From: Erythrobacter dokdonensis DSW-74
GTDB taxonomy: Bacteria; Pseudomonadota; Alphaproteobacteria; Sphingomonadales; Sphingomonadaceae
Direction: 5' to 3'
Length of the DNA stretch: 64,000 nucleotides
Assembly: GCF_001677335.1 (NCBI RefSeq)
Contig: NZ_LZYB01000004.1
Coordinates: 186,001-250,000, forward strand
Below the pieces are notes generated by a model. That model was not told where the DNA came from. It was given only the letters and a program-made list of their open reading frames with translations, and did not search any database. Shown one piece after another: positions 10,989 to 17,705 of this stretch (position 1 is the first letter of the stretch; each line of letters opens with the position of its first letter). A program made the position numbers and the translations under genes.

Positions 10989-11960
10989 TCAGAACTCCCC
11001 GCCCGTGAGGCGCTGGCAGACCAGATCCAGCTGATCCAGCGTCGTATAGCGGATCGTGATCGTGCCCTTTCGGGGGTCGGCCTCGGGCTTGATCTTAACG
11101 CCAAGTCCCAGAAATTCCTCGAGGTGTTGTTGAACGGCAAGAATATCCGCATTCTCGGCAGATTCGGTGCGGGACCCTGGCGCCTTGCCCGCGCTCTTGC
11201 CCTTGGCAAGCTTGCGGCTGAGCACTTCGATATCGCGTACCGAGAGCCCCTCCTTGACCGCGATCTCAGCCAGCTCGGCAGCATCGGTCCGCCCCACCAG
11301 TGCACGGGCATGACCGACCGACAGCGCGCCCTGTTCCACCAGATCGAGCACCCGATCCGGCAAGGTCATCATCCGCATCATGTTGGCGACGTGGCTGCGC
11401 GATTTCTCGACCATCTTGGCGATGTCGACCTGGATCATCCCTTCCTGTTCTGACAGGCGGTGATAGGCGCGCGCTTCCTCGACCGGATTGAGATCCTCTC
11501 GCTGGAGGTTCTCGATCAGGGCCAGCGCCATCACCTCGCGCTCGGACAGGTCGCGTACCAGCGCCGGAATTTCGTGCAGGCGGGCCTTCTGCGCCGCCCG
11601 CCAGCGCCGCTCGCCCGCGACCAGCTGGAAGCCGCTGCCGTCGGGATGGGGGCGCACGATGATCGGCTGGATCACCCCGCGCGCCGCGATCGAGGCGGCA
11701 AGCTCGTTCAGCGCATCCTCGTCGAAATGCTTGCGCGGGTTGCCCGGAAGCGGCTTGATATTGGCGAGCGCGAGCATTCGCAGCATCGATCCGGCAGACG
11801 AAGGCGGGCCATCGATTGGTTCCTCGCGGCGCACCAGCGGCTCTTCACGACGGGTCTCGCCCAGTAGCGCCCCAAGCCCCTTGCCAAGGCGCCGTGGTTT
11901 ATCCGCCGAAGTGCGTGAAGTGGACGAAATATCAGATGGTTGGGTGGTATTTTCGGTCAT
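10989..11960 (-). CDS. parB: Chromosome partitioning protein ParB
   Basis: 323 residues. ParB is a CTP-dependent DNA clamp that loads at parS and spreads, organising the origin region. The N-terminal Arg-rich segment (about 22-48, LGKGLGALLGE) is the usual ParA-stimulating tail. ParB/Srx domain with GERRWRAAQ at 116-124, the CTP-binding C-motif; a central helix-turn-helix for parS (about 165-225); and a C-terminal dimerisation domain. Its ATG overlaps the parA TGA (ATGA). Five parS sites lie 0.9-4.1 kb upstream on the same strand. Confidence 0.97.
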   Translation of the reverse strand: MTENTTQPSDISSTSRTSADKPRRLGKGLGALLGETRREEPLVRREEPIDGPPSSAGSMLRMLALANIKPLPGNPRKHFDEDALNELAASIAARGVIQPIIVRPHPDGSGFQLVAGERRWRAAQKARLHEIPALVRDLSEREVMALALIENLQREDLNPVEEARAYHRLSEQEGMIQVDIAKMVEKSRSHVANMMRMMTLPDRVLDLVEQGALSVGHARALVGRTDAAELAEIAVKEGLSVRDIEVLSRKLAKGKSAGKAPGSRTESAENADILAVQQHLEEFLGLGVKIKPEADPRKGTITIRYTTLDQLDLVCQRLTGGEF

Positions 11961-12733
11961 GCGGCCTGCCTTTCTGCAGGGAATCGTCCGATCAGCTCGC
12001 GCGCCAGGGCCATATAGGCGCGGCTGCCCGTGCAGTGCTGGTCATAGACCAGCGCGGGGAGCCCATGGCTCGGCGCCTCGGACAGGCGGACGTTGCGGGG
12101 AATCACCGTGTCGAACACCAGCTTGCCGAGGCAGTCGCGCACATCATCGGAAACCTGGTCGGTCAGACGGTTGCGACGGTCAAACATCGTCAGCGCGACG
12201 CCAATGATGCCGAGACGCGGATTGAAGCGCTGCTGGACCTGATCGACCGTCTGGAGCAGCTGCGAAAGCCCTTCGAGAGCGAAAAACTCGCATTGCAGCG
12301 GCACCAGCAACGTATCGGCAGCGCACAGCGCGTTGAGCGTCAGCAATCCGAGCGAAGGCGGGCAATCGATGAAGGCGATATCATGGCCCGTATGGTTCTC
12401 CAGCGCATGACGAAGGCGTGCGGTGCGTTCTTCAACCGAGACCAGTTCTACCTCGGCGCCGGAGAGATCGACTGTCGCCGGGACGATATCGAGCCGCGGG
12501 ATGCTGGTGGGAACGACCGCGTCTTCCAGCGCAACCTCGTCAACCAGCAGGTCATAACTCGAAACCTCGCGCGCAGCGGAATGGACGCCCAGGCCGGTCG
12601 AGGCGTTCCCTTGCGGATCGAGGTCGATGAGCAGGGTACGCCAGCCCGTCGCCGCCATCGCCGTTGCAATGTTGATTGCAGTGGTCGTCTTGCCAACTCC
12701 ACCCTTCTGGTTGGCGATCGCGATGGTCAGCAT
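11957..12733 (-). CDS. parA: Chromosome partitioning ATPase ParA
   Basis: 258 residues. A deviant Walker A ATPase that binds DNA as a dimer and pulls ParB-parS complexes. Deviant Walker A KGGVGKTTT at residues 10-18, switch region LIDLDPQGN (35-43) and D-CPPSLG further on. ATG 12733 puts the Walker motif at the usual distance; the frame is open upstream, but that sequence is intergenic or antisense. It lies 59 nt after rsmG and is coupled to parB by ATGA. Confidence 0.97.
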   Translation of the reverse strand: MLTIAIANQKGGVGKTTTAINIATAMAATGWRTLLIDLDPQGNASTGLGVHSAAREVSSYDLLVDEVALEDAVVPTSIPRLDIVPATVDLSGAEVELVSVEERTARLRHALENHTGHDIAFIDCPPSLGLLTLNALCAADTLLVPLQCEFFALEGLSQLLQTVDQVQQRFNPRLGIIGVALTMFDRRNRLTDQVSDDVRDCLGKLVFDTVIPRNVRLSEAPSHGLPALVYDQHCTGSRAYMALARELIGRFPAERQAA

Positions 12734-12792: not shown

Positions 12793-13419
12793 TCAGGCCT
12801 TCACAATGATTCCCGCGTCGGGATCGGTCAAGGAATGTTTCACGTGAAACATTGCCCGAATCGAAGGCTTCAAGCTCTCCAATTCCTGCGCCGCGGAACG
12901 TCCCTTGGGCAAGACGTAGGCGGTTTGCCTTGTGGAGAAGGGTGCGGACAAGCTGAGCAGCTTTGCCAGCGGAGCAAAGGCGCGTGCCGAAATGGCGCGG
13001 GCAGGGAACGGTTCGACGCGCTCGAGCCTTTGCCCCTCGACCCGGCATTTGCGCAAGCCGAGTGCGGCGATCGCGGATTCGAGGAATTCCACGCGCCTCG
13101 CGCGGGATTCAACCAGCACCACGGGCATATTGGGGCAAAGCGCCGCGATCACCAGCCCGGGAAAGCCCGGCCCACTGCCCAGATCAAGCCACGGCCCCTG
13201 CGCATTCGGTCCCAATGTTTCACGTGAAACATTTTCCAGAAGCTGGGCCGAATCCGCGATGTGGCGCTGCCAGATATGCGGTTCGGTTGCCTTGGCGATA
13301 AGATTCTGGCGCTGGTTTTCCGCGAGCACCAGCGCAGCGAATTGCTCGAGGCGGGCCATACCCTCGGCATCGGTCAGCCCGGCCACATAAGCGCGGGCGT
13401 CGTCCTCGGTGATAATCAC
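12793..13419 (-). CDS. rsmG: 16S rRNA (guanine527-N7)-methyltransferase RsmG (GidB)
   Basis: 208 residues. It methylates G527 of 16S rRNA with S-adenosylmethionine. The SAM motif [13 protein letters not shown] is at 78-90. The GTG start overlaps the mnmG TGA (GTGA). Two parS palindromes are written into the gene. One encodes NVSRET (63-68), just before the methyltransferase core; the other encodes MFHVKH (190-195) in the C-terminal tail. Neither disrupts a known motif. Confidence 0.95.
12836..12851. other. parS: parS site 1 (inside rsmG)
   Basis: Exact match to the consensus TGTTTCACGTGAAACA, part of a 20-bp perfect palindrome (12834-12853). Read on the minus strand it encodes MFHVKH in the rsmG tail. 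Closest parS to parAB. Confidence 0.95.
13216..13231. other. parS: parS site 2 (inside rsmG)
   Basis: Exact TGTTTCACGTGAAACA in the same 20-bp palindrome (13214-13233). Here the coding frame is shifted and reads NVSRET. Confidence 0.95.
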
Positions 13420-15266
13420 GCCGCAATCCGGCGACGGGCATGGACCAGCAGCGCCGAGAGCGCCGCAGGCGTAACGCCGGGCACGCGTCCTGCGGCCGCC
13501 AGCGTCCCGGGCGCCGCCCTGGTCAGGCGCTCGACCATTTCATTCGACAGCCCGGGCACCTCGGCATACGGAAAATCGGCCGGCAGCGGCAGCGCCTCGC
13601 TCGCGCGAAGGTCACGCAGTTCGGCGTCCTGCCGCGCCAGATAGGGCGCATAGGCCGCATCCTCGGCCATTTCCTCGGCCAGAAGAGGGTCAAGGGTGGT
13701 CACTTCCTCAAGCCAGGGCGCGAGCGCAGCCGGAGTCACCCCGTCATGGCGAAGCCACTCGGACAGCGCCTTCTCTCCATGATCCCGGCGGACCGGCAGG
13801 CCGAGTTCGGCCAGTTCGCGCGCGTGAACCTTCGTGGAATGTTTCACGTGAAACATTTCCCGCACGTCTTCGCGGCGCTCCCACCATGCACGGCGCTGCG
13901 GACCGATGCACCCCGCCTCGATCCCGAGGCCGGTCAAGCGCGTGGCAGCATTGTTGGCGCGCAGCCGCAGCCGGTATTCGGCGCGCGCGGTAAGCATCCG
14001 GTAGGGCTCGGTCACCCCTTGGAGGGTGAGATCGTCAACCATCACCGCGATATAGGAATTGGCGCGGTCAAGCTGGGGAGCGGCCTTGCCGAGAACCGCA
14101 GCCGCGGCCTCCAACCCGGCCACCAGACCTTGCGCAGCGGCTTCTTCATATCCGGTCGTACCGTTGATCTGTCCGGCGCAATAGAGCCCCGGAATCGCGC
14201 GCAACTGGAGGTCGGGCGTCAGCGCGCGCGGATCGATGTGGTCATATTCAACCGCGTAGCCCGGCTGCACGATTGCCACCCTCTCGCAGCCGGGCATGGT
14301 GCGCACCACGGTCTCCTGCACATCGACGGGAAGCGAGGTGCTGATGCCGTTGGGATAGACGAGATGGGTGTCGAGCCCCTCGGGCTCAAGAAATACCTGA
14401 TGCCCCTCACGGTCGCCAAAGCGGTGGATCTTGTCCTCGATCGACGGGCAATAGCGTGGCCCTGCTGCCGCAATCGCGCCGGAGAACAGCGGCGAGCGGT
14501 GGAGATTGGCGCGGATCGCGTCATGCCCGGCCTGCATCGTGCGGGTGATCGCGCAGAACACCTGCGGATTAACCCGGCGCGGCGTGAGTGGAGACATCGT
14601 CCACTCCTCGCCATCAGAAGGCTGTTCCTCCAACGCCGCCCAGTCAATCGTGCGTCCATCGAGGCGGGGAGGCGTTCCCGTCTTGAGCCGAGCCATGGGC
14701 AGATCGGCCGCGCGCAACTGCTGCGCAAGGCGCTTGGCCGCGTTCTCGCCGATGCGCCCGCCTTCGAAGCGTTCCTCGCCGCGATAGAGGATCCCGCCAA
14801 GAAAGGTCCCGGTGCACAGGATAACCCGCGGCGCATCAAGCACCGTCCCATCGGCCAACTCCAGCCCCGCAACCACCCCGCTCTTCAGCACCAGCGCAGC
14901 AGCCTCGCCCTGAACCAGCGTCAGGTTGGCCTGCGCACGCACCGTTCGCTGCACCGCCGCCTTGAACCGCACCCGGTCGGCCTGCACGCGCGGACCCCAC
15001 ACGGCACTGCCCTTGGAGCGGTTGAGCATCCGGTAATGGATCGCCCCCGCATCCGCTGCGCGCCCGATCACGCCGTCGAGCGCATCGACTTCACGCACCA
15101 GGTGGCCCTTGCCCAGCCCGCCAATGGCAGGATTGCAGCTCATCGCGCCGATGGCATCCAGGTCAAAACTCACCAACGCTGCACGCACACCCATCCGCGC
15201 CGCCGCGCAGGCGGCTTCGACCCCGGCGTGACCGCCGCCGATGACAAGGACATCGTAGTGGTGCAT
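13416..15266 (-). CDS. mnmG: tRNA uridine-5-carboxymethylaminomethyl modification protein MnmG (GidA)
   Basis: 616 residues. With MnmE it installs the cmnm5/nm5 group at U34 of certain tRNAs, using FAD, NADH and methylene-THF. The dinucleotide-binding motif [12 protein letters not shown] is at 8-19. The family blocks [23 protein letters not shown] and [13 protein letters not shown] are intact. ATG 15266 begins [12 protein letters not shown]; the in-frame extension to 15332 runs into parS site 4. A third parS encodes MFHVKH at 471-476, in a variable region of the C-terminal helical part. Confidence 0.96.
13840..13855. other. parS: parS site 3 (inside mnmG)
   Basis: Exact TGTTTCACGTGAAACA in the 20-bp palindrome 13838-13857, encoding MFHVKH at mnmG codons 471-476. 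Confidence 0.95.
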
Positions 15267-15332
15267 GGCCGCGCAAATAAGGTGCGCAAGGGGAATCGTC
15301 AAAGCGGATTTGGATACGCTGCGCGCTTCCAA

Positions 15333-15348
15333 TGTTTCACGTGAAACA
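15333..15348. other. parS: parS site 4 (mnmE-mnmG intergenic)
   Basis: Exact TGTTTCACGTGAAACA in the 96-nt gap between the mnmE stop and the mnmG start, 66 nt upstream of mnmG. It is the only intergenic copy. Confidence 0.95.
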
Positions 15349-15362
15349 TTTTGCCGCCAGCA

Positions 15363-16649
15363 TCACTTGCCGATGCAGAACCGCCCGAACAGTGTGTCGA
15401 GCATGTCCTCGGTTGTCGCCCGCCCGATCAGGCGGTCGAAAGCAAGCCGGGCGCGGCGCAGCTCTTCGGCAATCAGAAGCGGGTCCGACAACCCCTGCGC
15501 CCCCTCCAGCGCCTCAGCCGCCTCCGACAGGCGCGCATGCTGGCGGGCATTGAGCGCCGCCTCTCCCGGCTTGGGCAGAGCATCGCGCGCCGCCTTGACC
15601 AAGCCTGACTTGAGTGCGCCCAGTCCCTCGCCCGAGGTTGCCGACAAGGTGAAGCTGGCCGATCGCTTGGGCACGAACCCATCGCGATCCGCCTGGGCGG
15701 CAATTTCCCAGGCACCCGGCGGTCCCCCGCCCTCCGGCCCGAGCCAAAGTACAAGATCGGCGCGGGCGAGCTGGCTCTTGGCGCGGTCAATTCCGATCGA
15801 CTCGATCTCGTCGGCCAAGCCATCATCGCGCAGACCGGCTGTATCGACAAAGGTGAACGGCACGCCGCCAATCGCAACCGAGCGTTCGATGACATCGCGG
15901 GTCGTGCCGGCAATCGGCGAGGTGATGGCTGCTTCACTCTCGGTCAATGCATTGAAAAGAGTTGATTTCCCTGCATTGGGAGGCCCGGCGAGCACCACCC
16001 GGAAACCCTCACCGAGCCGTTCCGAGCGCGGGCGCGCCAGCCATTGGCGCAGATCCTGGGCCAGGGCGGCAATGTTCCACGTGAAACATTCCGGCAGGTC
16101 AGCAGAATCCTCCTCGTCAGAGAAGTCCAGCACCCCTTCGACCTCCGCCGAAAGACCCAAGACACGTTCACGCCAACCCTCGACCTGGCGCGACAAGGCC
16201 CCACCAGCATTGGCGAGCGCAGCGGCACGGGCAAGCTCGGTTTCGGCGGCGAGCAGATCGCCCAGCCCTTCGGCCTCGGCCAGGTCGATACGCCCATTGG
16301 CAAAGGCACGGCGCGTAAATTCTCCCGCCTCGGCCCGGCGCAGGCCGGGAATTGCGGCCAGCGCCCGCTCCACAGCCGCAACCACCGCGCGGCCCCCATG
16401 GCAATGGAACTCTGCCAGATCCTCTCCTGTGGCGCAGTCGGGGCCCGGAAACCACAACACTAGTGCAACGTCGAGCAGACCTCCGACACCGTCGCGCAAA
16501 TGCGCCAACGAAGCCCGACGGGGCGGCGGCACCCTGCCCGCCAGATTCTCCAGAGCCATACGCGCTGCGGGGCCGGAGACACGGATTATACCGACCCCGG
16601 CAGGCGGCGCGCCGCTCGAAAGTGCGAAGATGGTCGGCCCGTCGCTCAC
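15363..16649 (-). CDS. mnmE: tRNA modification GTPase MnmE (TrmE)
   Basis: 428 residues. Partner of MnmG in U34 modification. An N-terminal THF-binding domain (1-115) is followed by a helical domain interrupted by the G domain: G1 GPPNAGKST (222-230), the GTTRD switch (248-252) and DTAG (269-272). The C-terminal CIGK with catalytic C425 is present. The start is GTG, 4 nt after the DUF6489 stop. A variant parS at codons 188-192 (CFTWN) lies in the linker before the G domain. Confidence 0.96.
   Translation of the reverse strand: MSDGPTIFALSSGAPPAGVGIIRVSGPAARMALENLAGRVPPPRRASLAHLRDGVGGLLDVALVLWFPGPDCATGEDLAEFHCHGGRAVVAAVERALAAIPGLRRAEAGEFTRRAFANGRIDLAEAEGLGDLLAAETELARAAALANAGGALSRQVEGWRERVLGLSAEVEGVLDFSDEEDSADLPECFTWNIAALAQDLRQWLARPRSERLGEGFRVVLAGPPNAGKSTLFNALTESEAAITSPIAGTTRDVIERSVAIGGVPFTFVDTAGLRDDGLADEIESIGIDRAKSQLARADLVLWLGPEGGGPPGAWEIAAQADRDGFVPKRSASFTLSATSGEGLGALKSGLVKAARDALPKPGEAALNARQHARLSEAAEALEGAQGLSDPLLIAEELRRARLAFDRLIGRATTEDMLDTLFGRFCIGK
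16073..16088. other. parS: parS site 5, one mismatch (inside mnmE)
   Basis: TGTTCCACGTGAAACA differs from consensus at one base. On the mnmE strand the word reads TGT TTC ACG TGG; the consensus would read TGT TTC ACG TGA, a stop. The mismatch is thus the minimal change that keeps mnmE open. Confidence 0.85.
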
Positions 16650-17006: not shown

Positions 17007-17705
17007 ATGAGCCTCAACCAAACCATTCCCACCCTAGAAGGCGATGCCAGCTTCGGTGCCTATGTCGCCGCGCCGGAAGGCACGCCGCGGGGTGCAATCA
17101 TCGTCATACAAGAGATTTTCGGGGTAAACCCCGGTATCCGCCAGAAATGTGATAAGCTAGCCGCAGATGGCTACCTCGCGGTCGCACCGGATCTGTTCTG
17201 GCGGTTGGAACCGGGAGTGGAATTCGATCCCGATGTGGAAGCCGAGTTCCAGACCGCGCTCGAGATGATGGGGCGGTTCGATCAGGACGCAGGCATCCGC
17301 GATATCGAGGCGACCATCCACCACATCCGCCGCACGCTCGGCGTCGCCAAAGTCGGCTGCGTGGGCTACTGCCTTGGCGGGCGGCTCGCCTACATGACCG
17401 CAGCGCGCACCGATATCGATGCGAGTGTAGGCTATTACGGGGTCGGCATCGACGGCCTGCTGGGCGAAAAGCACGCCATCGCCAATCCGCTGATGCTGCA
17501 TATTCCCACCGCGGACGGTTTCGTCCCGCCCGAAACGCAAAAGGCAATGCACGAGGGCTTGGACGATCACCCGCGCGTGACCCTGCACGATTACGAAGGG
17601 CTAGACCACGGGTTCGCCACCGAGCACGGCAAGCGCCGGATCGAGGATGCGGCAAACCTTGCCGACAGCCGCACCGCCGCCTTTTTCGCCGAGCATCTGG
17701 GATGA
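17007..17705 (+). CDS. Dienelactone hydrolase family protein
   Basis: 232 residues, alpha/beta hydrolase of the dienelactone hydrolase family. The triad C122 (in GYCLGG), D170 and H201 (in LDHGF) falls within one residue of Pseudomonas carboxymethylenebutenolidase (C123, D171, H202). An active enzyme is expected; the natural substrate is unknown because no aromatic catabolic genes are nearby. GAGAGAGA precedes the ATG. The stop overlaps the next start by ATGA. Confidence 0.9.
   Translation: MSLNQTIPTLEGDASFGAYVAAPEGTPRGAIIVIQEIFGVNPGIRQKCDKLAADGYLAVAPDLFWRLEPGVEFDPDVEAEFQTALEMMGRFDQDAGIRDIEATIHHIRRTLGVAKVGCVGYCLGGRLAYMTAARTDIDASVGYYGVGIDGLLGEKHAIANPLMLHIPTADGFVPPETQKAMHEGLDDHPRVTLHDYEGLDHGFATEHGKRRIEDAANLADSRTAAFFAEHLG

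Follow-up and report, generated by a model that had tools for sequence, protein, structure and literature searches.

A parS site inside mnmE of Erythrobacter dokdonensis that probably owes its single mismatch to the reading frame, and dispersed parS copies in its relatives

The window, a 64,000-nucleotide stretch of the Erythrobacter dokdonensis DSW-74 genome, contains four exact copies of the parS palindrome TGTTTCACGTGAAACA and a fifth copy with one mismatch, which lies inside mnmE. We consider it very probable that this fifth copy functions as a parS within the centromere cluster at parAB, that it has been selected as DNA, and that its mismatch was forced on it by the reading frame. The site would then be a single stretch of DNA subject to both a binding code and a reading frame, with the conflict between the two settled at one base. 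This result is right and modest in scope; the dispersed parS network to which the site appears to belong (see below) is more surprising.

The five copies lie among five genes that are all encoded on the minus strand: parB (10989..11960; Pfam ParB_N, HTH_ParB, and ParB_C), whose product is the presumed binder of all parS copies; parA (11957..12733; AAA_31 and CbiA); rsmG, also called gidB (12793..13419; GidB); mnmG (13416..15332; GIDA from residue 27); and mnmE, encoding the tRNA modification GTPase (15363..16649; TrmE_N, MnmE_helical, and MMR_HSR1, with an alignment to the solved MnmE 9hip). The mnmG coordinates are those of the open frame from its first start, and the true start is probably farther inside. 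A dienelactone-hydrolase-family gene follows on the plus strand (17007..17705) and carries no parS in this genome. The exact copies, for which no strand is assigned, are located in the rsmG 3' end region (12836..12851, phase 1, ATG TTT CAC GTG AAA CAT, MFHVKH), inside rsmG (13216..13231, phase 2, GTT TCA CGT GAA ACA, VSRET), inside mnmG (13840..13855, phase 1, MFHVKH), and in the mnmG/mnmE intergenic region (15333..15348). With the mnmE copy in phase 3, parS is indeed found in all three coding phases, as the initial annotation stated. When matches with up to three mismatches were counted in 100 shuffles, 0.05 were expected by chance, compared with the 5 found, and no shuffle contained five. 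Every copy adjoins parAB, within about 5 kb of parA/parB, and has the sequence of the 16-bp palindrome TGTTTCACGTGAAACA or of a near variant. In both the palindrome and its clustering beside parAB the window resembles the parS of Bacillus, Caulobacter, and Pseudomonas; the ParABS consensus given in PMC7383237 is TGTTTCAC-GTGAAACA.

The mnmE copy occupies positions 16073..16088 (minus strand), where the coding strand reads TGTTTCACGTGGAACA, i.e., parS with a change of A to G at position 12 (A12G). It is translated in phase 3 as TGT TTC ACG TGG AAC (C188 F189 T190 W191 N192) and extends to the first base of codon 193. In this phase the consensus would place TGA at codon 191, where the actual codon is TGG. 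A perfect copy is thus impossible in this phase because the 16-bp consensus contains a TGA there, and the mismatch is, as had been proposed from the sequence of the window, exactly the base that avoids the stop. The site falls within the helical domain, ahead of the G domain, and the variable segment that holds it could be aligned to solved MnmE chains with low confidence only.

We aligned 86 mnmE rows, taken from 80 named loci (the best 80 of 154, a set biased towards the site segment, which was included in one of the six search patterns) and five further genomes; two rows, G220 and L067, come from one genome. The expectation that phase-3 parS always carries TGG held in 39 mnmE rows and in six copies from another lineage (L093, L094, L095, L101, L105, and L109), which lie in a 576–617-aa gene downstream of mnmE, presumably mnmG by its place and size, and encode CSTWN or RSTWN. 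The absence of TGA from phase 3 is partly self-evident, stop-bearing sites being invisible within intact genes. The evidence is nevertheless informative, because there are eight single changes that turn TGA into a sense codon and the phase-3 copies use just one of them, A12G; none of the other seven was found, though the finder admitted them as one mismatch. A second phase-3 candidate in the window genome, L040, was dropped: a likely ATG with a purine-rich leader lies downstream of the site, its counterpart in the relative G161 (L156) is called intergenic, and L040 itself is probably non-coding.

Comparison with neighbouring copies argues that the frame imposes the mismatch. At 33 loci with a TTTC-type site, 162 of the 187 neighbouring copies (up to two mismatches, within 4.5 kb) are perfect, whereas all 33 mnmE copies are imperfect, 30 with one mismatch and three with two. 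Among the 25 imperfect neighbours, 18 share a single coding location, in the dienelactone-hydrolase gene at its FVPPETQ segment. In the relative G226, five copies (up to one mismatch) within 5 kb of the mnmE copy are all perfect and the mnmE copy alone is mismatched. The dienelactone-hydrolase gene carries parS at the FVPPETQ segment in many relatives (as FVPRETQ or FVSRETQ); the T5C change yields Pro there, and Pro is also present in several relatives without parS; this may be the same coding-constraint principle. Another candidate, L058:2558, had been listed as a phase-3 copy and was dropped, being this same dienelactone-hydrolase position on the opposite strand.

The competing reading that survives best supposes that the TTTC/GGAA half-variants are equal to the consensus, so that the mismatch is neutral and calls for no coding explanation. 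We regard it as improbable, though half right. Variant copies do occur in non-coding places: among the 28 non-coding copies of the window genome, T5C/A12G is one-sided in 8 and two-sided in one, and two phase-1 calls near gene starts bear T5C. Copies near mnmE in non-expanded relatives (G198, G200, and G202) are also often TGTTTCACGTGGAACA. Yet the predominance of perfect neighbours at TTTC-type loci shows that the consensus is preferred there. Tolerance explains which base is used, because T5C/A12G is a generally tolerated parS variant, and the reading frame explains why there is any mismatch. The initial annotation ascribed the mismatch to coding constraint and not to decay; its claim stands insofar as the frame forces a mismatch and falls short insofar as the same variant is tolerated in 8 of 28 non-coding copies. 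Taken together, the preferred reading is that mnmE-mnmG-rsmG-parAB would form a centromere cluster of which the mnmE copy is one member, held by selection inside coding sequence; that the in-frame TGA bars a perfect copy, and A12G, a variant tolerated elsewhere in the group, would be used instead; and that A12G, through TGG, would impose Trp on a variable MnmE segment, relatives without the site lacking this Trp. Judging by sequence, ParB should bind the mnmE copy, A12G should cost little ParB affinity, and the site would serve segregation.

The sharpest test of the frame explanation is provided by the relative G179, where the binding code itself has apparently changed. This genome contains 52 exact copies of TGTTCCACGTGGAACA (0–3 in each of the 113 remaining genomes of the genus), but of the old (TTTC) type it has just 3 copies when one mismatch is allowed. 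The new set (G179 loci L182 and L195–L225) is found both beside parAB and far from it. G179 had been taken for a genome without dispersed parS, wrongly, as its 52 copies are of the TTCC/GGAA type. In phase 3, TGTTCCACGTGGAACA reads TGG, and the G179 mnmE copy is perfect (TGT TCC ACG TGG AAC, CSTWN). The absence of a mismatch once the consensus lacks the stop supports the frame explanation: as far as sequence can tell, the conflict between frame and binding disappears where the binding code is different. Other coding copies near mnmE read MFHVEH twice (mnmG and rsmG) and NVPRGT (rsmG). The dienelactone-hydrolase copy, also close to mnmE, retained A12 (FVPRET); changing A12 would convert Glu to Gly at a position where 64 of 71 rows have an acidic residue.

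G179 and G161 have copies at 18 common places. C5 and G12 are present in G179 at all 18 (17 exact; L205 has one further mismatch), 13 of which were fetched for being of the new type, so that the unbiased part consists of the five found via arrays. At the same places G161 has T5 and A12 in 16 and is one-sided in two. Since 13 of the 18 were selected by type, the argument for a concerted change rests on the genome-wide counts, the G161 genome having 63 copies within one mismatch of the old type and no exact TGTTCCACGTGGAACA.

These counts also bear on the possibility, which we consider quite unlikely, that some other protein, and not ParB, binds the palindrome. The dozens of copies that lie far from parAB beside GGGTC arrays are unlike ordinary parS and would fit such a protein. 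Against this, the sequence is canonical parS and adjoins parAB; the type counts of G179 and G161 span copies near and far from parAB, which argues for one binder; at the shared places all 18 G179 copies have C5 and G12 (13 type-selected, 5 via arrays); and the ParB of the clade has residues of its own. A one-residue insertion (G110) is present in 31/31 ParB rows of the expanded clade and in 0/45 others, and I176, V178, and M194 of the HTH domain in 29–30/31 and 0–2/45, respectively. This comparison drops L065 (incomplete) and L116 (frame trouble), and L183 and L067, both among the 45, are one genome. As the rows share descent, the sequences show an association only between these residues and the expansion. 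The HTH region of G179 ParB differs further (SHIANMHR, GHAKTL). The window genome encodes a second PF02195 (ParB_N) protein at L125 (G000:C5:13244-13432), ParB being the first.

In the mnmE alignment, Trp191 is present in 39 of 86 rows, every one of which reads ACG TGG AAC, and in 0 of the 47 rows without the site; the initial annotation's view that the CFTWN segment would be absent where parS is absent is borne out for Trp. The segment is otherwise variable across relatives without the site. At 78% mnmE identity or more, 36 of 38 rows have Trp191, both exceptions being the one genome G220 = L067; three additional Trp191 rows fall under 78%. The mnmE copy of G220 = L067 has decayed to GGTTTCATGGGGAACA, and the site is therefore dispensable there. 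A protein tree built from 55 rows requires three changes of the site label, possibly through one gain and two losses, and the 39 site-bearing rows are related, so these counts are not numbers of independent events.

Synonymous positions within the site are frozen. Codon 190 is ACG in 39/39 rows (compared with 34% for Thr in the rest of these genes) and codon 192 is AAC in 39/39 (46% elsewhere); Cys188 is TGT in 34/34 (18% elsewhere) and Ile193 is ATT in 34/38 (23% elsewhere). Codon invariance is found in just 3 of 270 residue-conserved columns, two of which belong to the site, though the clade was picked by codons 190–191, which makes the test circular for those two codons. The Thr190 count is still valid given Trp191, because no Trp191 row has a Thr codon other than ACG. 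Because of this codon invariance and of the perfect neighbouring copies, we conclude that the available sequences show selection acting on the DNA of the mnmE site and not on the peptide; the proposal that a parS-like site is retained by selection in mnmE is thereby upheld.

The same data make it very unlikely that MnmE function selects for the CFTWN peptide, and chiefly for Trp191, with the likeness to parS as a by-product. The occurrence of Trp191 in 36 of 38 close rows would suit such a peptide. Selection on the peptide would leave the frozen synonymous positions unexplained; moreover, Phe is Ser in G179, matching its changed parS consensus, and the segment varies freely in relatives without the site and aligns to solved MnmE with low confidence. 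Hardly any weight is left for ordinary drift in a decaying parS, which the single mismatch and the one truly decayed relative (G220 = L067) might suggest, as the ACG TGG AAC core is common to 39 rows while neighbouring codons vary, the surrounding copies are mostly perfect, and the copy of G179, whose consensus is compatible with the frame, is free of mismatches. Selection on the mnmE site as DNA, with a mismatch forced by the frame, thus remains our reading. In Qipengyuania sphaerica (L120), a parS-like site is found at nt 556 of mnmE; it shares the variable segment but is read in phase 1 (MFHVEL), and is apparently an independent gain.

The mnmE site is one of many in its genome. With up to two mismatches allowed, 44 copies were found in the window genome (loci L005–L043 and the window), compared with 1 for a reversed control pattern. 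At a limit of one mismatch, the 114 genomes of the genus split into 47 with 9–86 copies and 67 with 0–4, with none between; these counts are of the TTTC type and miss TTCC/GGAA, for which reason alone G179 falls in the low class. The high-copy class falls among Erythrobacter and 'Porphyrobacter' records (named loci matched by coordinates). Elsewhere in the family, exact Y/R copies were counted in 291 genomes from other genera; all but seven (13, 13, 9, 8, 7, 6, and 5) have 0–4. Genus g95 (G101, G290, G338, G375, and G408) is a second genus with a raised parS number (5–13).

For 26 of the 39 dispersed copies of the window genome, G161 has a copy in the corresponding place. In G161 (63 copies) and G226 (47 copies), each assembled as one contig, copies are found all round the chromosome. 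Perfect copies are closer to mnmE than copies with one mismatch: the mean distances are 0.57 Mb vs 1.15 Mb in G161 (P = 0.0008) and 0.15 Mb vs 0.86 Mb in G226 (P = 1e-5), and the effect persists when the parAB cluster is removed (P = 0.002 and 0.0006, respectively). In this comparison mnmE served as a proxy for the origin, the mnmE copy was left out, the length of G226 was rounded to 3.3 Mb, and G262 was left out.

Most parS sites lie close to the origin, with 22 sites near it in Streptomyces coelicolor and Listeria innocua, according to PMC5815017, and PMC7022226 places the vast majority within the origin domain. The dispersed copies of G161 and G226, as distinct from the mnmE copy, are not so confined, and with up to 86 copies per genome the clade departs from the ordinary chromosomal parS of these sources and contradicts the rule that parS lies near the origin. 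PMC7022226 also describes Pseudomonas aeruginosa ParB at many non-origin places via heptamer half-parS sites; in contrast, the sites here are full palindromes, and many recur at equivalent positions in more than one species. In a literature search on Erythrobacter, Sphingomonadales, and Porphyrobacter and on dispersed or counted parS, with most subscription journals outside its scope, no such dispersal was reported.

A ParB-family palindrome that is spread widely over the chromosome is known from Bacillus, where it is bound by Noc. The copies described here share this wide spread but are parS: each matched parS with two mismatches or fewer, whereas NBS (consensus TATTTCCCGGGAAATA) differs from it at 4 of 16 bases. 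The NBS consensus given in PMC7383237 is TATTTCCC-GGGAAATA.

In the genomes that were read closely, most dispersed copies adjoin a one-sided array of GGGTC, spaced mainly by 11 bp and often placed between convergent genes; the five window copies are without an array. Within 120 bp of the 44 copies of the window genome the motif GGGGTCTGG was counted 25 times, as against 0 times in the 233 kb compared (the window plus fetched flanks more than 300 bp from any copy). At least two GGGTC stand beside the copy in 24/39 cases in the window genome, 42/55 in G161, and 26/27 in G179, where 8 of the 27 regions had been picked by their arrays. A spacing of 11 bp accounts for 31/45, 53/79, and 39/49 intervals in these three genomes, followed mostly by 21, 22, and 32 bp. 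Non-genic copies lie between convergent genes in 15/28, 25/45, and 11/17 cases, respectively, compared with 10/71 neighbour pairs in the window (gene calls for this count came from a codon-usage script).

Taking these features together, we give about even chances to a wider reading, in which one Erythrobacter clade ('Porphyrobacter' and relatives) has a genome-wide parS network: dozens of full palindromes whose positions are conserved along both arms, most with a one-sided GGGTC array near helical register (mainly 11, also 21, 22, and 32 bp), strongest near parAB and fading with distance, served by one ParB that has clade-specific residues, with a doubly coded member on the parAB side in mnmE, and changed in concert as a whole set in G179. 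Such a network could mean that ParB acts in a polycentric or Noc-like way or organises the nucleoid, and a second protein on the array could confine ParB. With this clade it becomes possible to test how cells cope with dozens of sites at which ParB is loaded, and how a centromere protein comes to change jointly with about 50 sites.

Arrays also occur without parS. Among 20 array-chosen regions, 11 have no copy with up to two mismatches (L186–L188 in the window genome, L189, L191–L194, L196, L202, and L204); 9 of the 20, in the window genome and G161, had been picked for having no listed copy, and one of these, L190, has a copy with two mismatches. The best parS match near the 11 parS-free arrays has 4–8 mismatches, the same as in random 400-bp pieces (4–8). 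An orientation of arrays along the replichores was rejected by eye, as G161 arrays face both ways on both arms. In tandem contexts the array-side gene points at the array in 17/23 cases (4/5, 9/13, and 4/5), a weak leaning towards arrays as RNA (rut-like) elements read from the adjoining gene. The spacings of 21 and 32 bp speak rather for a helical register on DNA, though 22 bp also occurs.
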